From: Farysia itapuensis
Lineage: Eukaryota > Basidiomycota > Ustilaginomycetes > Ustilaginales > Ustilaginaceae
DNA length: 64,000 nt
Direction: 5' to 3'
NCBI GenBank assembly: GCA_023212645.1
Contig: JALBYC010000009.1
Location: forward strand, 62,001-126,000
A model generated the notes under the pieces. The model was not told the DNA's origin, made no database searches, and saw only the letters and a list, made by a program, of their open reading frames with translations. This document shows, one piece after another, positions 2,065-20,879 of the stretch (positions within the stretch are counted from its first letter, which is position 1; each line of letters starts with the position of its first letter). Made by a program: the position numbers and the translations under genes.

Positions 2065-4698
2065 ATGGCACGAAAGCAGAACGAGAAAGGCGAGCCGAAA
2101 GCTCAGTCGAGCTCCAGCGCCGTCACGAGCGACCCCCGTTTCGCCCGTTTACATACAGACCCGCGCTTCCTCAAGCCTCGACGTGATGACACTAAAGTGG
2201 TCGTTGATGACCGCTTCAAAGACATCTTCACCGATAGTAAGGACACGAAGAAGACGGACAAATACGGGCGGAAAGTGCGCAAAGGTCAAAGCGATGCGGA
2301 CCAGATGAAGCGATTCTATCGTCTCGCCGATGATGATCTGTCTGCTAACCAGGTAGACGGCAATGGCGCAGAGGCAGAGGAGGACCATGACACTGATTCA
2401 GACGCAGAGCAAGCTGTCGACTACGCTCGTGGAGAAGGCAAACTCGAAAGCAGCTCCGAAGAAGAAAGCAGCGATGAAGAAGAAGATGCTTCCGAGAGCA
2501 GCGAAGAAGAAGACAGCGACGACGAAGACGTTATGGTGGGACCATCAAATGTGACAACACGAGAGAAGAGGTTGCATGGCCTTTCTCGCTCGCAAGGAGC
2601 ATTTCAAGAACGTGAAGAAGACGACGACGACGAGGATGGTCTCGGCTCGGATCTGGGCGACATCGACTTGGATGAAGATGTGGATGAAGCTGTGTATGCG
2701 CAATTAGACGCCCAAGCAGAGCGAGCGATAGCCGACGGGGGAATCGAAGGCATCTCTGATGATGAGGCGGAAGCTTCTACGTCCACGTCCAAATTCAAGA
2801 GCAAGCGAAAAGAAAAGGAGGCTCGCAAAACGAAGTCTGCTGTCAACAGAATACCCAGAGGCGATGACACGAACCGTCTGGCTGTCGTGAATCTTGATTG
2901 GGACCACGTCCGGGCCAAAGATATCTTCAAGATCTTTTCCAGCATCGTCTCTCCTTTGGCCTCTGTCTCTGCCTCCGAAGCTTTGAAAATGAAACGCAGA
3001 TCCACCGGCAAAGACGCTCCCGCCATAGCCCAGGTACGCGGCAAAGTTGTCAACGTGCGTGTCTACCCCAGCGACTTTGGGAAAGAACGTATGGCCCGCG
3101 AGGACATTGAAGGTCCTCCACCCGAGATTTTCAAGGGTGCCAAAGGTGACGAAGATTCTGACGAAGAAGTGACGACGAAAAACATCGTTCAGGTTGATGA
3201 AGGAGGTGAATTTGACGAAGAAGCACTGCGAAAGTATCAACTTGATCGACTCCGGTACTTTTACGCCGTGGCCACTTTCGACGACAAGGACACTGCTCGA
3301 CACGTGTACAACGAAGTCGACGGAACAGAGATGGAGCGCACAGCTAACGTCTTTGACCTTCGCTTCGTGCCCGACGGAATGGAGCTTCCTGATGGCGAGG
3401 ACGGCCGCGACGCTGAATACCGCGACCAAGCAACCGAAGACGTAAGTAACTACAAAGGCCTCGACTTCAAAACGGACGCGTTGCGACATTCTCGCGTCAA
3501 GCTGACTTGGGACCAGGACGACCCGGAGCGGTCAAAGCTCACGAAGCTTGTTGCTCGGGGTGGGCTCAGCAAAGACCAGTTACGCGACGACGACTTCAAA
3601 GCCTATCTGGCGTCCGACACAGAGTCGGAGGGCGAGGAACAACGCGTTGATGGAAAAGCAGGTAAAGCCGGTCGGGAACGCCTCCGCGCATTACTGAGCA
3701 TGGACGATCTAGGAGGATATGGCGGCAAGGGAGGTAAAAGAAATGGTGGTGTCTTTGACGACCCTGCCCACGATGACGATGAACAGGGTGACATGCAGAT
3801 CACCTTCATGCCAGGACTGTCCGAACACGCTGCAAAGAAAGCTGGACACCAAAAGTCGACTGGCGAAGAGACGACGCTTGAGAAGTATCTCCGCAAGCAA
3901 AAAGAAAAAAAGGAGAGAAAAAGGTCCAAGCGTAACGAAGAAGGCATGGATGAAGACCACGAGGTCGAGAACGATGAAGAGGATGTTGTCGACAAAGAAG
4001 CAGATGGGGCTGGCTTTGATGACCCATTCTTCAACAGCGACAACGACCTGGACATGGACGCTGCGTTGGCTGAAGAGTATGGCGACAGCGCTCCGTCCAA
4101 GAACAAGGACAAAAAGAATCTCAAGGCAAAGTTGAAAGCCAAGGCTGCGGGATCGGACAAAGTCTCGCCAGAAGAGGATGCACGAGAGCGAGCTCAGTTG
4201 ACTGCTTTGATAGGTGACGCCAACGACGAAGTGACGCAGGATGGCAGACAACACTTTGACATGAAAGACATTCTTCGTGTCGAAAGCGGTAAAGACGCAA
4301 AGCGCGCAAAGATGCTCAGAAAGCTGTCTAAGAAGAAGCAAAAGGCGGAACAAGACTTCCAAGAGCGTAAAGGAAATCCATTGGTTCAAGACACGTTCGA
4401 GATCAACGCCAAAGACGACCGCTTCGGAGCACTCATGGATGATCATCGCTTTGCCATTGATCCAGCCCATCCAGGCTTCTCAAAGACCAAGGCCATGCAG
4501 AAAATCATGGACGAACGGCGCAAACAGCTGGACAGCCAAACTGGTGAAGAGAGTCGTGATAGAAGCGAGCGCCAGACAGCTGATGGCGATGGCGCCGAAG
4601 GCATCGACACGCTCGTGGCCAAGCTGAAACGCCAGCATGGAGGCGCCGAATTGCCGAAAAAGAAGAGGCAGAGAAAGAGCAAGATGTCCGCGCCTTGA
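2065..4698 (+). CDS. ESF1: Pre-rRNA processing protein Esf1
   Basis: Nucleolar factor for early 18S pre-rRNA processing in the small-subunit processome. The 877-residue intronless protein starts with the family's typical block of short DPRF repeats (DPRFARL, DPRFLKP, DDRFKDIF). It then has a long Glu/Asp/Ser-rich acidic tract (about residues 105-230), a central region starting with NRLAVVNLDWDHVRAKDIF that is typical of Esf1, and a second acidic/Lys-rich stretch. Near the C-terminus is a NUC153 motif (DDRFGALMDDHRFAIDP, then GFSKTKAMQKIMDERR) and a basic tail that could serve nucleolar localisation. It is longer than yeast Esf1 because of the charged spacers. It converges on LSM5 with about 100 bases between the stop codons. 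The long antisense open frames inside it come from repeated GAA/GAC codons. Confidence 0.93.
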   Translation: MARKQNEKGEPKAQSSSSAVTSDPRFARLHTDPRFLKPRRDDTKVVVDDRFKDIFTDSKDTKKTDKYGRKVRKGQSDADQMKRFYRLADDDLSANQVDGNGAEAEEDHDTDSDAEQAVDYARGEGKLESSSEEESSDEEEDASESSEEEDSDDEDVMVGPSNVTTREKRLHGLSRSQGAFQEREEDDDDEDGLGSDLGDIDLDEDVDEAVYAQLDAQAERAIADGGIEGISDDEAEASTSTSKFKSKRKEKEARKTKSAVNRIPRGDDTNRLAVVNLDWDHVRAKDIFKIFSSIVSPLASVSASEALKMKRRSTGKDAPAIAQVRGKVVNVRVYPSDFGKERMAREDIEGPPPEIFKGAKGDEDSDEEVTTKNIVQVDEGGEFDEEALRKYQLDRLRYFYAVATFDDKDTARHVYNEVDGTEMERTANVFDLRFVPDGMELPDGEDGRDAEYRDQATEDVSNYKGLDFKTDALRHSRVKLTWDQDDPERSKLTKLVARGGLSKDQLRDDDFKAYLASDTESEGEEQRVDGKAGKAGRERLRALLSMDDLGGYGGKGGKRNGGVFDDPAHDDDEQGDMQITFMPGLSEHAAKKAGHQKSTGEETTLEKYLRKQKEKKERKRSKRNEEGMDEDHEVENDEEDVVDKEADGAGFDDPFFNSDNDLDMDAALAEEYGDSAPSKNKDKKNLKAKLKAKAAGSDKVSPEEDARERAQLTALIGDANDEVTQDGRQHFDMKDILRVESGKDAKRAKMLRKLSKKKQKAEQDFQERKGNPLVQDTFEINAKDDRFGALMDDHRFAIDPAHPGFSKTKAMQKIMDERRKQLDSQTGEESRDRSERQTADGDGAEGIDTLVAKLKRQHGGAELPKKKRQRKSKMSAP

Positions 4699-16078: not shown

Positions 16079-16851
16079 CTAATCTCGTCTGGAGAGTTCC
16101 ACAACAGGCAAGGTGAAGTAGCTTGTGGCGGGTGTGAGCAGACCGGCTGCTCCTACGTACCAGGCAATGGCCGAGGTGAAGATTCCCAATGCGCCGCTTG
16201 CCGTCTTTACACCCTCGGTGCCGGTAATCTCGGCGAGGATCTGGAGCAAGAACGTCACATCGAGGAAGAAGAACAGCGTGATCAGTCCGACCGATGAGCG
16301 GAAGGCAGCGAGAAGGAGGATGGTGGTAAAGATGAACCAGCTCGTCAAATAGATGGCGATGGCGCTGGCGAGTTCGTCTCGAGGCACGCCGTTTGGATTA
16401 TATGCTCCCTGAACAACGCCAAACCACGGGATCTGGATTACGGCGTAAGATATCCTGCAAGCGAACTCGCGTTAGCAAAAGGAGATGGGGTTATTTGAGA
16501 TGGAGAGACTTACCAGAAAGCGCCATAGGAGCAGAAGGCGGTAGCGCCGAACGTGTTTCCCGCAGCAAATTCCCACAGCCCGGCCAGGAGCTGCGCCAAT
16601 CCGCCATACGCCAGCGCAAGACCGACTACGACGTTGGGCGCAGAAATGCTACGCACCTGAAGCACATACATTGAAAACACGAAGGTGGTTCCCGCGAAAG
16701 CAAACAAACCGAGCGGGGCGGGGTTGCCAATTTCGCGGCGGTAGCGCGGAAAAGCAGGCTGCATCATATCGCTTGATTGTGGCCCTGCTGTGGGTGTACG
16801 GCTGACTTGCTGACCGCCGTCGTAGCCATTACTGTGCACTGTATCAGGCAT
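16079..16851 (-). CDS. GPR1/FUN34/YaaH (ATO) family acetate transporter, 2 exons
   Basis: Plasma-membrane acetate/monocarboxylate permease family, also called AceTr or Ato. Exon 1 is 16851-16514 and exon 2 is 16454-16079; the 59-bp intron has donor GTAAGT and acceptor CAG. The joined protein has 237 residues. The family signature NPAPLGL lies at the start of the first membrane segment (about residue 43). Six hydrophobic segments follow, typical of the family. The join reads GAFW then ISYAVIQIPWFGV, continuing a membrane segment without a break. The ~40-residue N-terminus is hydrophilic and may carry regulatory sites, as in yeast Ato proteins. Substrate is assigned by family only. Confidence 0.9.
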
Positions 16852-17105: not shown

Positions 17106-20100
17106 TTATGCCTTGTCGTCCCATACGACTCGGCCACCACCAAAAATGTATGGATAGCTGGTCTGGTAATAATTGACAAACGTACGTCGGCCGGCGACAC
17201 TCGGGGCAGTCGCATAGCTTCCACCAATGACGACGCTATGCTTCTCGTCGAAAAAGTCAGAACTGTAGCCAGGATAGAGCTGCGAAGGCTGGAAACCATC
17301 GTAAGCTGCGAATGGAGTGCTGGTCCATTCCCACACACCTCCGTTGTGACCAGGCAGTAGCGTGCCGTCCGAGTCGTAGCGCGGCAGAGTAGCTGGGACC
17401 GGATGCCAGTTTCGGAATCCGACATTGGCGGAAGGAGCAGCTTGTGCCTGGGTAGGGTTGGTCGAGCTTCGGCGTCCATCGCGCGAGCCGGATTTGCTGT
17501 GACCATTGGGATGTTCGCCAGAGCCGTGCATGGATACGCCTGGGGGCTGAATGTTGGTCTTGAGCACTCGTCTCGCCTTAGACTGCGGGTTGGGCGCATT
17601 GGTGTTCTCGGTAATGTAGAAGCGGCGAAGCATCATAATGGCCTCATCGCGCAGATACCCACCTACTGATTCATAGCCGGGCGAGCTAAGGATAGCCTCG
17701 TCGTCGTGGAGACCGAGCACGCTACCGTTGCCGCCAAACCGCTCGTTACCCGCTCCAAAGACAACACGCTGGATGCCGACCTGTCTGAGTGCAGCGCCGC
17801 ACATTATACATGGCTCGATCGTGACGTAAAGAGTGGTGTCCTTGAACGGATTGTCTCCTGGCAGACACGAGTGCGGATCTAGCGCGAAATTGTCGCTCGA
17901 AGGTGGCAAAATCGACAGGATGTAGTCAATTGCTTCCAGCTCGGCATGTCGGGTTGCATTAAGCAATTCGTTAGTTCTGTTTCGGCCCCGGGCGATGACC
18001 TCACCGTTCCTGACGAAAACCCCTCCTACAGGTACCTCGTTGGCATCAAGAGCCTCCTGGGCCATAGCAAGAGCCTCTTGCATCCATTTCAGATCCTCGT
18101 CGGCTTGTTGCTCGCGAGGCACGTATTTTGCCGCCGAGCCACGTGCGGGCGGAGGTTGCAGACCGGGTGGATCTACGCCAGAATCTTGATGGTCATCTCT
18201 GCCGTCATCTTTGCCAAAGGGTGAGACGGTCAAGTCGAGAACGAGTGCCTCGGGTGGAGCATCAAAGAGACGGCGAAGCTCGGCGTGTGAAGGCAGACGA
18301 CCACCTTTGTGCGCCGCGTACGCTGCCAATTGTTTTCCAGAAGCCTGTACCGGCCAGTGTTTCGCCACGTCCATGCTGACCGGGCCGTAGAAGGTTCGAA
18401 TTCGATAGCTGTCGCCTTCTGACGACTTGACCCATGAGGAAGGTGCGTCAGTCAGACCAGTAGACCTCATGAAGTCGAGATACTGAGAATTCGAAATGGG
18501 AAGTGACGAAATCTTGAAGGCTCCAGTCTTGACTAGGCGTCGAGGATGCTCATTGTCCCAGCCAAATTCAGGCCTTCCGAGCTGGTCGTTGAGGTCGTCC
18601 GTGCTGTTGCTTGGCTTCGAAGCAACGATGTCGAAATCTTGGCTCTCATCGTCATCGTGGCCAAGCATAATGGGACCAGCCTCGAATCTGAAGACCTGAT
18701 CAAGAGCGAGGTCAGCGCCGCGCTTCGCGAATTCGCCATCCCAGACTCGAGATAGAGAGGCCCAGTCAGGAGCGGTGAATCCCGCAGGCGCCTGTACCTT
18801 TGGACTCTGGATAAGCATGTACAAAAGAGTCTCGAGATGGAGGTTGATGTGCTCCAAAGTCATCCAGAGCATTCGAGCCAAGCGTCGGTTCATGACAAGA
18901 TCACCTTTTGCAACGTCGTCGTAGATTTTCTCTACTCGTTGCTGGACACTACATTGGTATTGCAGGATCTCTTCCAGAGTGGGCCAGTCTTCGGGCCGAG
19001 TCGGCACCTCACTGTGAGGATTGCATTTAGTGATATCGTCCATGTGAGGATCAATACCACGTTCGAAAATGGCGGAGAAGTGATTGTTGGTGTGTGGCGC
19101 CTTGAGATTGTTGGAAATGTGAATGTCAATAAACGCGGGAATATGACCGAGGTAGAAGAGGCAGATGTGGCGTAGGTCGATAGGCTTCTCGTGCAGCAGG
19201 TCCCGAGGAATCATGGTCAGAGTGACACAATTCCAAGCGTCCCACATGATCTTCCAGTCACGAACATCTGGCAAACCCAGTGTGTGTGCTCTCTGCGCTC
19301 GTTCGTCGAGGTCACTGCCACCCCAGCCATTGTCGACTGTCGCCGTGTCCCTCTCACCATTGACATCGTCATTCGGCAAGCGCTGAGCGACTTCGTGTTC
19401 GCCCATCGAGTTGCTGAAGTGGAATGTCGGTTTCTCGACTAGCCATATGTCGTAGCGGTCCGATTTGTCGGTCCACTTCTGCACCACTCGAAGGCCGGCG
19501 AAATCAAAGAGGTTCAAGGTCTCGCGCTCGCTGGACTTGTAGCTCGCTTCCATATGGATCAGTTCGTCCTTTTCAATAGTGATGGGCGTGCTTTCGCCGG
19601 GAATTTGCAGAGTGTGTGCTTCCTTGGCACGGTAATAGGACTCATGTCGGCCCTCTCGACTGTTGTACCGATCGTGGTACTCGAACTTGGATCGATCCAG
19701 CACATTTCCGCCAAGCACACGGTCTACATGATCCAGGCCGTTCATGATAAAGTCTCGCGTCAGACCGGCCGGGTCGTTGTAGGCCAGACTGATTTCGACC
19801 GGTTTGTTGCGACGGTCGATCGAGATCAGCATGGTGTCCCCTGCCCTCATGCTGCTTTTGGCGGTCTTGCCGAGAAACTCGCCTGCAGATTTGCGATCAA
19901 AGTTACCAATACTAGATCCGAGCCAGAGGAAGCAACGCTTTCCTTCCTCCTTAGCGCCAGCCTTCGTTGAAAATTGCTCGAGTCCACCGTTGCCAATGTA
20001 GTCGAGACCCGCATCGTAGGTGGCCCACATACCATTCAGGCCGACTTTGCCGTCGTGGATAGTCCACTGGTTTGAGTCTTTTTGCGAGGCCTCTTGAGCA

Positions 20101-20879
20101 TGTAGGTCCTGAAGCGTTCGAACAAGCTCAGCCTTGTCAAGATCAAGCGCAAAGTAATTGACACTTGGGCCATTCTGGGTAAAAGATGGGAGCAACTTGA
20201 GTGCTCGCAGCAGATGGATTGTCTTCTTCAACGAGCCAGCGCCAAGTTCGACAAGAGAATGCGCTCCACAGGCGAGCACACCGTCGAACCCTTCTTCGCC
20301 GTTGACACCGCCATTGAATTCTCCAACTTTGTTGTCGCCCCAGCGTTCTTTGTCGGCCTGGTTGAGCGATTCCTGGCTTGGACCTTGACGCTCGTTCTTA
20401 TGCGGTTCTCGTTCCTTTTGGTAGTCGTTTCTCTTTTGGTGTGTTTGCAGGGTACTGTAGCCAAAGATCCTGAGAGCGATCTCTGAGCCGTGGTCTCTGA
20501 GAATCTGTAGCTCGGCGTTGTAAAGGTAGTATTCGGGCGCTGTTGTGAGCTTGTCGTACAAGAGCAGACCTTGTTCGTCGTACAATATAGTGGTGGGTAG
20601 AGTCTTTCTGTAGGCAAATGTCTGGTCTGTCGAGTTCGAGATCTGTCCGGGAATCACGAGCTTTTGTGAGCGAAGACCTGCAATGATCTCTTGTTTCAGC
20701 TTGTCATCTGCTGAGTCGCTCGACAGACTGTCGGCACCTCCAGAGTACAAATCTAGGAGTGGTGCCGGTCCTAGCGGCTTTGGCGAGATGGGTTGTACCA
20801 CCTTCCTGACTTTCTGCTCGCCCTCGTGAAGGACGGAGTCAAATGCAGCACCCGTGGTGCTAGTGGCAGAGGGGGTCAT
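17106..20879 (-). CDS. EGT1: Ergothioneine synthase Egt1 with an inserted Tad2-type tRNA deaminase
   Basis: One uninterrupted 1257-residue frame. Residues ~65-485 are the EgtD-type histidine N-alpha-methyltransferase, with SAM motif ELGAGSLKKT at 211-220 and FLWLGSSIGNFD at 317-328. Residues ~535-700 are the DinB-like part of the EgtB-type sulfoxide synthase; the likely iron ligands are His579 and the H-x3-H-x-E motif at His677/His681/Glu683. The formylglycine-generating-enzyme-like fold begins at ~776 and runs to ~873. It is then interrupted and resumes at ~1151 (ANVGFRNWHPV) to the end, including GGVWEWTSTPF. Together these modules make ergothioneine from histidine and cysteine, as in Neurospora and S. 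pombe Egt1 (about 800-900 residues). The extra ~270 residues are a complete adenosine deaminase, annotated separately. A possible TATA element on the minus strand (TATATAG, near 20988) lies about 110 bases upstream. Confidence 0.9.
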   Translation of the reverse strand: MTPSATSTTGAAFDSVLHEGEQKVRKVVQPISPKPLGPAPLLDLYSGGADSLSSDSADDKLKQEIIAGLRSQKLVIPGQISNSTDQTFAYRKTLPTTILYDEQGLLLYDKLTTAPEYYLYNAELQILRDHGSEIALRIFGYSTLQTHQKRNDYQKEREPHKNERQGPSQESLNQADKERWGDNKVGEFNGGVNGEEGFDGVLACGAHSLVELGAGSLKKTIHLLRALKLLPSFTQNGPSVNYFALDLDKAELVRTLQDLHAQEASQKDSNQWTIHDGKVGLNGMWATYDAGLDYIGNGGLEQFSTKAGAKEEGKRCFLWLGSSIGNFDRKSAGEFLGKTAKSSMRAGDTMLISIDRRNKPVEISLAYNDPAGLTRDFIMNGLDHVDRVLGGNVLDRSKFEYHDRYNSREGRHESYYRAKEAHTLQIPGESTPITIEKDELIHMEASYKSSERETLNLFDFAGLRVVQKWTDKSDRYDIWLVEKPTFHFSNSMGEHEVAQRLPNDDVNGERDTATVDNGWGGSDLDERAQRAHTLGLPDVRDWKIMWDAWNCVTLTMIPRDLLHEKPIDLRHICLFYLGHIPAFIDIHISNNLKAPHTNNHFSAIFERGIDPHMDDITKCNPHSEVPTRPEDWPTLEEILQYQCSVQQRVEKIYDDVAKGDLVMNRRLARMLWMTLEHINLHLETLLYMLIQSPKVQAPAGFTAPDWASLSRVWDGEFAKRGADLALDQVFRFEAGPIMLGHDDDESQDFDIVASKPSNSTDDLNDQLGRPEFGWDNEHPRRLVKTGAFKISSLPISNSQYLDFMRSTGLTDAPSSWVKSSEGDSYRIRTFYGPVSMDVAKHWPVQASGKQLAAYAAHKGGRLPSHAELRRLFDAPPEALVLDLTVSPFGKDDGRDDHQDSGVDPPGLQPPPARGSAAKYVPREQQADEDLKWMQEALAMAQEALDANEVPVGGVFVRNGEVIARGRNRTNELLNATRHAELEAIDYILSILPPSSDNFALDPHSCLPGDNPFKDTTLYVTIEPCIMCGAALRQVGIQRVVFGAGNERFGGNGSVLGLHDDEAILSSPGYESVGGYLRDEAIMMLRRFYITENTNAPNPQSKARRVLKTNIQPPGVSMHGSGEHPNGHSKSGSRDGRRSSTNPTQAQAAPSANVGFRNWHPVPATLPRYDSDGTLLPGHNGGVWEWTSTPFAAYDGFQPSQLYPGYSSDFFDEKHSVVIGGSYATAPSVAGRRTFVNYYQTSYPYIFGGGRVVWDDKA
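17559..18113 (-). other. Tad2/ADAT2-like adenosine deaminase domain nested in Egt1
   Basis: Residues ~923-1107 of the Egt1 frame form a whole cytidine/adenosine-deaminase-fold domain. It has EVPVGGVFVRNGEVIARG, the zinc/proton-shuttle motif HAE (His978, Glu980), and PCIMC (Cys1024, Cys1027). The sequence then reads NERFGGNGSVL and a Tad2-like end (GYESVGGYLRDEAIMMLRRFY, then SKARRVLK). In eukaryotes Tad2 pairs with Tad3 to convert A34 to inosine in tRNA anticodons. The domain is flanked by Gly/Pro/Ser/Asp-rich linkers (~885-922 and ~1110-1150), consistent with insertion into a surface loop of the host fold. There is no stop codon, frameshift or clear splice pair at the borders. Whether both activities come from one polypeptide is unknown. 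Confidence 0.88.

Follow-up and report, generated by a model that had tools for sequence, protein, structure and literature searches.

The ergothioneine synthase gene egt1 of the basidiomycete Farysia itapuensis (Ustilaginaceae) carries, judged by its sequence, a complete tRNA adenosine deaminase of the Tad2/ADAT2 type inside its own reading frame. The gene lies in a 64,000-nucleotide stretch of DNA (hereafter the window; contig JALBYC010000009.1 of assembly GCA_023212645.1, positions 62,001 to 126,000 of the forward strand), and the deaminase is placed in a domain resembling formylglycine-generating enzyme (FGE). In the eukaryotic enzyme that deaminates A34 of tRNAs, Tad2/ADAT2 is the catalytic subunit and works as a heterodimer with Tad3; this inosine-editing enzyme normally has its own gene and has been reported to be essential in other eukaryotes. 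The Egt1-Tad2 frame starts with ATG and remains open over 1257 codons, with about five more in-frame codons upstream of the ATG (open frame of 1262). An initial annotation of this DNA had proposed a complete Tad2-like deaminase within an Egt1 frame about 1.5 times the usual length. Pfam, matches to structure chains and motifs bear out the deaminase; His978-Ala-Glu980, Cys1024, Cys1027 and NERFGG stand in the translation where they had been placed, and the frame is about 1.6 times as long as Egt1 of Schizosaccharomyces pombe (773 aa according to PMC4020840).

Two deaminase models of Pfam matched residues 928-1055, between the two halves of the FGE-like domain. Compared with all solved structures, the insert matched yeast Tad2 (7bv5_A, 7.1e-44), human ADAT2 (3dh1_A, 6.3e-42) and mouse ADAT2 (7nz7_A, 4.2e-41) far beyond chance, with the top bacterial TadA (1.1e-21) far behind. 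Identity was 51% to yeast Tad2, 49% to human ADAT2 and 32% to Escherichia coli TadA. These matches identify the insert as a predicted Tad2/ADAT2. A bacterial TadA was considered and ruled out by the far higher scores of eukaryotic ADAT2. The alignment spans residues 6-185 of yeast Tad2 and extends into the fungal C-terminal stretch (insert, SKARRVLKTNIQPP; yeast, SKSDRVLDKNTFPP). The catalytic Glu and the three zinc ligands (HAE, PCxxC) are retained, NERFGG occupies residues 1045-1050, and the deaminase fold was recovered for the insert in structure model 1 (see below). By counting along the alignment with Trypanosoma brucei ADAT2, we located R1047 and Y1088 as equivalents of its RY-gate (R159 and Y205; PMC9643335). 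At the place of the KR-motif, beside yeast KSDRVLDKN, there is a basic stretch, K1101-A-R1103-R1104-V-L-K1107, which corresponds in kind to the T. brucei motif KRKRK but is less compact (PMC9643335). The insert thus retains characters that set ADAT2 apart from bacterial TadA.

To map the insertion point, we removed the insert and aligned the remaining sequence with the EgtB chain 4x8b, which we take to be mycobacterial. The alignment runs over the junction (RLPTEIEWEK...YPWGD...ANLGG in 4x8b versus RLPSHAELRR...SPFGKDDG...SANVGF here), and the Tad2 insert is therefore located in one FGE loop. Among the matches listed in a scan of genome contigs, 80 bacterial OvoA/EgtB loci were kept from 437 relatives. 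The spacing from RLPxExEW to GNVWQW was 39-50 residues in 65 of the 80, compared with 311 residues here, and none of these 65 measurable loci has a long insert; in the other 15, the pattern was either not matched (12) or matched at the wrong place (3). Viral contigs scanned with residues 730-1257 gave no match.

Structure models of the fusion were built from two alignments; two others (A3 and A4) were discarded because MAFFT misplaces some rows in mixed sets. Model 1 was based on alignment A5, whose 51 rows comprise the query, 23 N-part rows and as many C-part rows, both sets taken from one group of 23 among the 80 bacterial loci, and 4 of 9 viral TadA loci. With a mean predicted local distance difference test score (pLDDT) of 58, it was confident for the Tad2 core and for a large part of the iron-site region and showed no FGE fold; some 10-residue blocks within the Tad2 segment were low (43-50), and for linker A the scores in Table 1 are those of 10-residue blocks up to the first Tad2 helix. 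The VIA-align rows cover the deaminase part of model 1 alone, so that the lack of an EgtB match among them carries no weight. Model 2 was based on alignment A6 (the query and 28 rows drawn from 14 loci, correctly placed except for a single stray residue in the rows of the N-part) and was still poor, with a mean pLDDT of 46. Structure prediction, which the initial annotation had suggested as a check, thus recovered the Tad2 core in model 1 and left the FGE fold without confidence in both; of its claim that the insert sits in an FGE loop with both halves intact, the loop and both halves stand by sequence.

The host enzyme is, by its motifs and domain matches, otherwise intact around the insert. 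Methyltransf_33 (PF10017), the EgtD-type domain, was found at residues 205-482 (E 3.1e-72), and EYY 116-118, IGN 324-326 and E444-x-S446 of the methyltransferase region align with EgtD. DinB_2 was not reported by Pfam at E 0.001 in the Egt1 frame; the region was recognised by aligning solved EgtB-IV chains, with which H579 (YLGH) and H677-x3-H681-x-E683 align, so that both the HX3HXE motif and the upstream His of the iron site are preserved. The FGE-sulfatase match is split into two stretches, of which the best covers residues 770-868 and the second lies at window 17121-17393 (genome C53:79121-79393); GGVWEW and LYPGYS align with solved EgtB and EgtB-IV chains. Both FGE halves are therefore matched by sequence. 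With NCBIfam, EasF scored above its cut-off for the fusion frame, whereas EgtD, OvoA, SenA, EgtB and TadA (E 1e-23 to 3e-46) all fell under their equivalog cut-offs; for TadA this is expected because the insert is the eukaryotic relative. The Egt1 part is predicted to make hercynylcysteine sulfoxide.

According to the initial annotation, an essential tRNA enzyme would depend on the Egt1 message if no other Tad2 existed in the genome, and we searched the whole assembly (13.7 Mb, 53 contigs) for deaminases. PF14437 matched four times, at 3 loci, and PF00383 gave 6 loci, and neither search revealed a second Tad2 in the assembly, so that the Tad2 in Egt1 is the only copy found. The five other deaminase loci are a dCMP deaminase on contig C14, a cytidine deaminase on C23, a PAP2-plus-deaminase gene on C2, a small deaminase on C34 (678k) and Tad3 on C34 (138k). 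Four of these genes were examined by Pfam, and the C23 gene was named by motif alone; we take the C14 gene to be a dCMP deaminase from its motif. As candidates for a second Tad2, the C14 gene was rejected because its motif reads as dCMP deaminase, and the C34:678k gene because it reads as an unrelated small deaminase. The assembly contains all of the core genes sought (29/29). In control searches, 17 proteasome matches resolved into 14 loci, 10 chaperonin matches into 9 CCT/Hsp60 loci with one piece set aside, and 7 MCM matches included 6 strong ones; 14, 9 and 6 are the numbers expected of a fungus. The chaperonin-like piece set aside (C12:293546-294322) is a partial match inside a 2653-codon open frame, presumably of a Fab1-type kinase. 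One FGE locus and one EgtD-type locus are present in the assembly, and both are the Egt1-Tad2 gene.

Table 1. Features of the egt1-Tad2 gene, in window coordinates
Feature	Residues	Window position	Strand	Remarks
Egt1 with inserted Tad2, whole fusion frame		17106..20879	(-)	1257 aa + stop
EgtD-like histidine methyltransferase region	91-485	19425..20609	(-)	alignment with EgtD
Low-complexity polar insert in methyltransferase domain	~136-202 (~67 residues)	20274..20474	(-)	
EgtB-type iron-binding region, DinB_2-like	~541-720	18720..19259	(-)	alignment with EgtB-IV
FGE-like domain, first half	770-893	18201..18572	(-)	ends RLPSHAELRRL...SPFGKDDG
Linker A, polar, low-complexity	894-923 (~30)	18111..18200	(-)	pLDDT 31-38
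Predicted complete Tad2/ADAT2 domain	924-1113	17541..18110	(-)	
Catalytic H978-A-E980 of Tad2		17940..17948	(-)	
Zinc-binding P1023-C1024-x2-C1027 of Tad2		17799..17813	(-)	
Linker B, polar, low-complexity	1114-1149 (36)	17433..17540	(-)	pLDDT blocks 30-38
FGE-like domain, second half	1150-1257	17109..17432	(-)	from SANVGFRNWHP via GGVWEW and LYPGYS to C-terminus

The gene adjoining egt1 (window 16079-16851), which presumably encodes a GPR1/FUN34/YaaH-like membrane protein, is split by a textbook intron (GTAAGT...GCTAAC...CAG).

The partner and the substrates of Tad2 are also encoded in the genome. Tad3 is found in a 706-codon frame (L154:3753-5873, minus strand; C34 ~137.8-139.9 kb) that also contains an N-terminal SET domain. 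Its deaminase part matched ADAT3/TAD3 chains (3e-9 to 4e-6), and its SET domain resembles that of SET domain-containing protein 7 (5h6z, 1.1e-9, with a 595-aa part as query). Tad3 shows HAA where Tad2 has the catalytic HAE, and should therefore not replace Tad2. With the tRNA model RF00005, at least 61 matches were obtained (63 of 318 candidates scored). We read 38 of the 43 matches off contig C43, in which ARAGORN, run so as to permit introns, identified 37 tRNAs. Six of these have A34 (three Ala-AGC, and one each of Thr-AGT, Leu-AAG and Ser-AGA); a seventh A34 call, Phe-AAA, probably results from misreading an intron. The 37 called, a list that is not exhaustive, include no tRNA with G34 for Ala-GCN, Thr-ACN, Leu-CTN or Ser-TCN. 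The A34 tRNA genes present would need editing. An intron was predicted in 32 of the 37 called tRNA genes (38 loci, L015-L062); all are of 7-42 bases apart from one doubtful intron of 104 bases. The other 18 of the 61 matches, 70-88 bases in length, are packed in the first 28 kb of contig C43, which is probably the mitochondrial genome.

The Tad2 segment is predicted to be read in the Egt1 frame. Across codons 869-1151 (insert and linkers), the other two forward frames contain 8 and 14 stops and the Egt1 frame none. The codon score of the Egt1 frame was the highest of the six frames in 10 of 10 segments, barely so in linker B (0.09 versus 0.06). These data bear on the spliced form raised in the initial annotation, in which the Tad2 segment is intron-like and is removed to give normal Egt1, with Tad2 made from the unspliced message. 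An in-frame removal of 729 nt, from a GT at nucleotide 2704 of the open reading frame (ORF) to an AG ending at 3432, could be drawn; with 11 GT and 12 AG candidates, however, chance alone would be expected to provide such a pair. A relaxed pattern for a branch site followed by an acceptor found none in ORF nt 3101-3480 (the linker B region), whereas the gene adjoining egt1 has its textbook intron, and the sole consensus intron-like match starting inside the frame, at nt 3695, extends beyond the stop codon and leaves the insert untouched. As the Tad2 segment also has Egt1-like codon usage, we regard splicing as very improbable. A priori, it is rare for an enzyme to be inserted within a domain of a second one, and an assembly error fusing two genes would account for it. 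But one continuous frame has two in-frame junctions with both Egt1 halves intact, the assembly lacks any other EgtD-type or FGE locus, and a long insert has been published in the same domain of Ustilago maydis Egt1 (PMC4020840); an error of this kind is hardly credible.

In the reading that we consider probable, one constitutive bifunctional chain is made, in which Tad2 is carried on tethers outside a working Egt1. The Tad2 coding sequence would have entered a single loop of the FGE-like domain without breaking the frame, and the fused gene would be expressed as a single protein. Linkers of ~30 and 36 residues would let the FGE halves close with Tad2 hanging outside. The tethered Tad2 would then pair with the separately encoded Tad3 and deaminate A34 of tRNAs, with the host enzyme sitting near the anticodon stem of the bound tRNA. 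The Egt1 parts would work as usual, and ergothioneine synthesis and tRNA editing could run independently of each other despite the fusion.

Several observations weigh against this reading. Because neither model (pLDDT 58 and 46) contains a confident FGE fold, the evidence that the FGE halves fold around the insert consists of sequence motifs and the mapped loop. A comparison of folds does not by itself distinguish Tad2, with cytosine and guanosine deaminases also scoring about 18. The A34 calls hinge on introns: without them, ARAGORN gives Leu-TAG at the three Ala-AGC loci and leaves the Thr locus unnamed. At least two other deaminase-family genes in this genome are likewise in one frame with unrelated domains, so fusions may be frequent here and without functional meaning; less weight would then fall on a special Egt1-Tad2 logic. 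In T. brucei ADAT2 the KR-motif is at the C-terminal end and is flexible until tRNA binds, whereas here it is tethered (PMC9643335). Tethering need not block tRNA binding, because ~40 flexible residues separate the KR-motif from the resumed FGE-like domain. Finally, Fusarium graminearum makes a shorter Tad2 through a TAD2 transcript that starts within the long one and uses an internal AUG, as described in the available text of PMC11087585.

That precedent keeps an internal start among the options. Free Tad2 would come from a short transcript, started at a promoter within the FGE-coding region and translated from an AUG such as that of M933, and full-length Egt1 would carry an inert or spare copy. 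In the alignment, M933 falls about ten residues after the beginning of yeast Tad2, and M939, the next in-frame Met, has a purine at -3; yet M933 itself has a pyrimidine at -3, and a start there loses about nine residues, while one at M939 would remove a larger part of the first helix. Between M836 and M933 there are four out-of-frame ATGs, three with a purine at -3 and the last only 4 nt before M933. Furthermore, the C-terminal half of the FGE-like domain continues in frame, and no free Tad2 would therefore result unless the C-terminus were shortened as well. Of this proposal of the initial annotation, the start context argues against it and the F. graminearum case for it, and we consider it unlikely.

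Alternatively, the whole chain could be made and then cut in both linkers to yield a nicked Egt1 and free Tad2. The linkers are polar, of low complexity and predicted to be disordered, and thus probably accessible to proteases. However, disorder is equally expected of plain tethers, and the FGE halves must remain together after two cuts. Cleavage, too, seems rather doubtful.

Persistence of the single chain would be explained by a ratchet. Across the first three quarters of egt1, almost every frameshift or nonsense mutation would destroy Tad2 as well; because the only Tad2 copy found lies downstream in the same frame, egt1 would not easily be lost by truncation. Such a ratchet would be enough to explain why the fusion is kept. 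Functional coupling of Egt1 and Tad2 is conceivable. Tad2 and Tad3, members of one heterodimer, would each be in frame with an S-adenosylmethionine (SAM)-dependent methyltransferase domain, which is worth testing. In a stronger form, the fusion would be functional and not neutral: a complex of Egt1-Tad2 and SET-Tad3 would join ergothioneine synthesis, histidine trimethylation, a lysine-methyltransferase-like domain and A34 editing, with redox or SAM state setting the inosine-34 level; we think this quite improbable. Another fused frame (L008:421-2106, plus strand; C2 ~439.3-440.9 kb) encodes 561 aa with a PAP2-like domain and a C-terminal deaminase, Inv-AAD by Pfam and best matched by the structure 7drz, which we take to be Rib2.

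The gene is of high interest because no other copy was found of the enzyme that it contains, which has been reported to be essential elsewhere. If the single-chain reading is true, a step of protein synthesis with reported essentiality in other eukaryotes would depend in this fungus on a metabolic enzyme, through its message, its frame and its folding. Yeasts like Saccharomyces cerevisiae live without Egt1. In fungi with the fusion, loss of egt1 could be lethal or mimic a translation defect unrelated to ergothioneine, and ergothioneine engineering with such genes would bring a tRNA editor along. As a clear natural example of an entire enzyme housed in the loop of another, the gene also helps to ask how fusions become fixed, by a ratchet or by coupling.

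Among the matches listed in the open PMC literature, no description of an Egt1-Tad2 fusion and no paper naming the insert were found. The initial annotation knew of no described link between the two enzymes, and among those matches this holds for the fusion itself; inserts in U. maydis Egt1 had, however, already been reported without identification. For UM00197, the U. maydis Egt1 homologue, Pluskal et al. 2014 (PMC4020840) describe long non-homologous inserts of unknown function in both the methyltransferase domain and the FGE-sulfatase domain, and they call such inserts not unusual among species. These are the same two domains that carry inserts here, and the Tad2 insertion is therefore probably inherited. 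Most economically, U. maydis would have this Tad2 insertion too and the present gene would belong to a relative, which would fit the smut affiliation given in the initial annotation. The text on UM00197 does not say what the insert is, and its identity with Tad2 is our inference; Tad2 would be a specific identity for an insert unexplained in 2014.

The fusion is well supported as anatomy and is best described as a domain-insertion fusion of two known enzymes. Like the fungal EgtD-EgtB fusions Egt-1 of Neurospora crassa and Egt1 of S. pombe (PMC4020840), the host has the methyltransferase, the HX3HXE iron site and the FGE-like domain in the same order; unlike them, it holds a complete additional enzyme within the FGE loop, and its methyltransferase domain has a shorter insert. 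F. graminearum Tad2, with its unusually long N-terminal extension, resembles the insert as a fungal Tad2 that tolerates extra N-terminal sequence, but the available text describes an extension and an internal start and no surrounding host enzyme (PMC11087585). With the Tad2/ADAT2 structures of yeast (7bv5), human (3dh1), mouse (7nz7) and T. brucei (8aw3), the insert shares HAE, PCxxC, NERFGG, the RY-gate equivalents and the basic stretch; in those structures Tad2/ADAT2 is a separate chain, whereas the insert runs into another enzyme at both ends.

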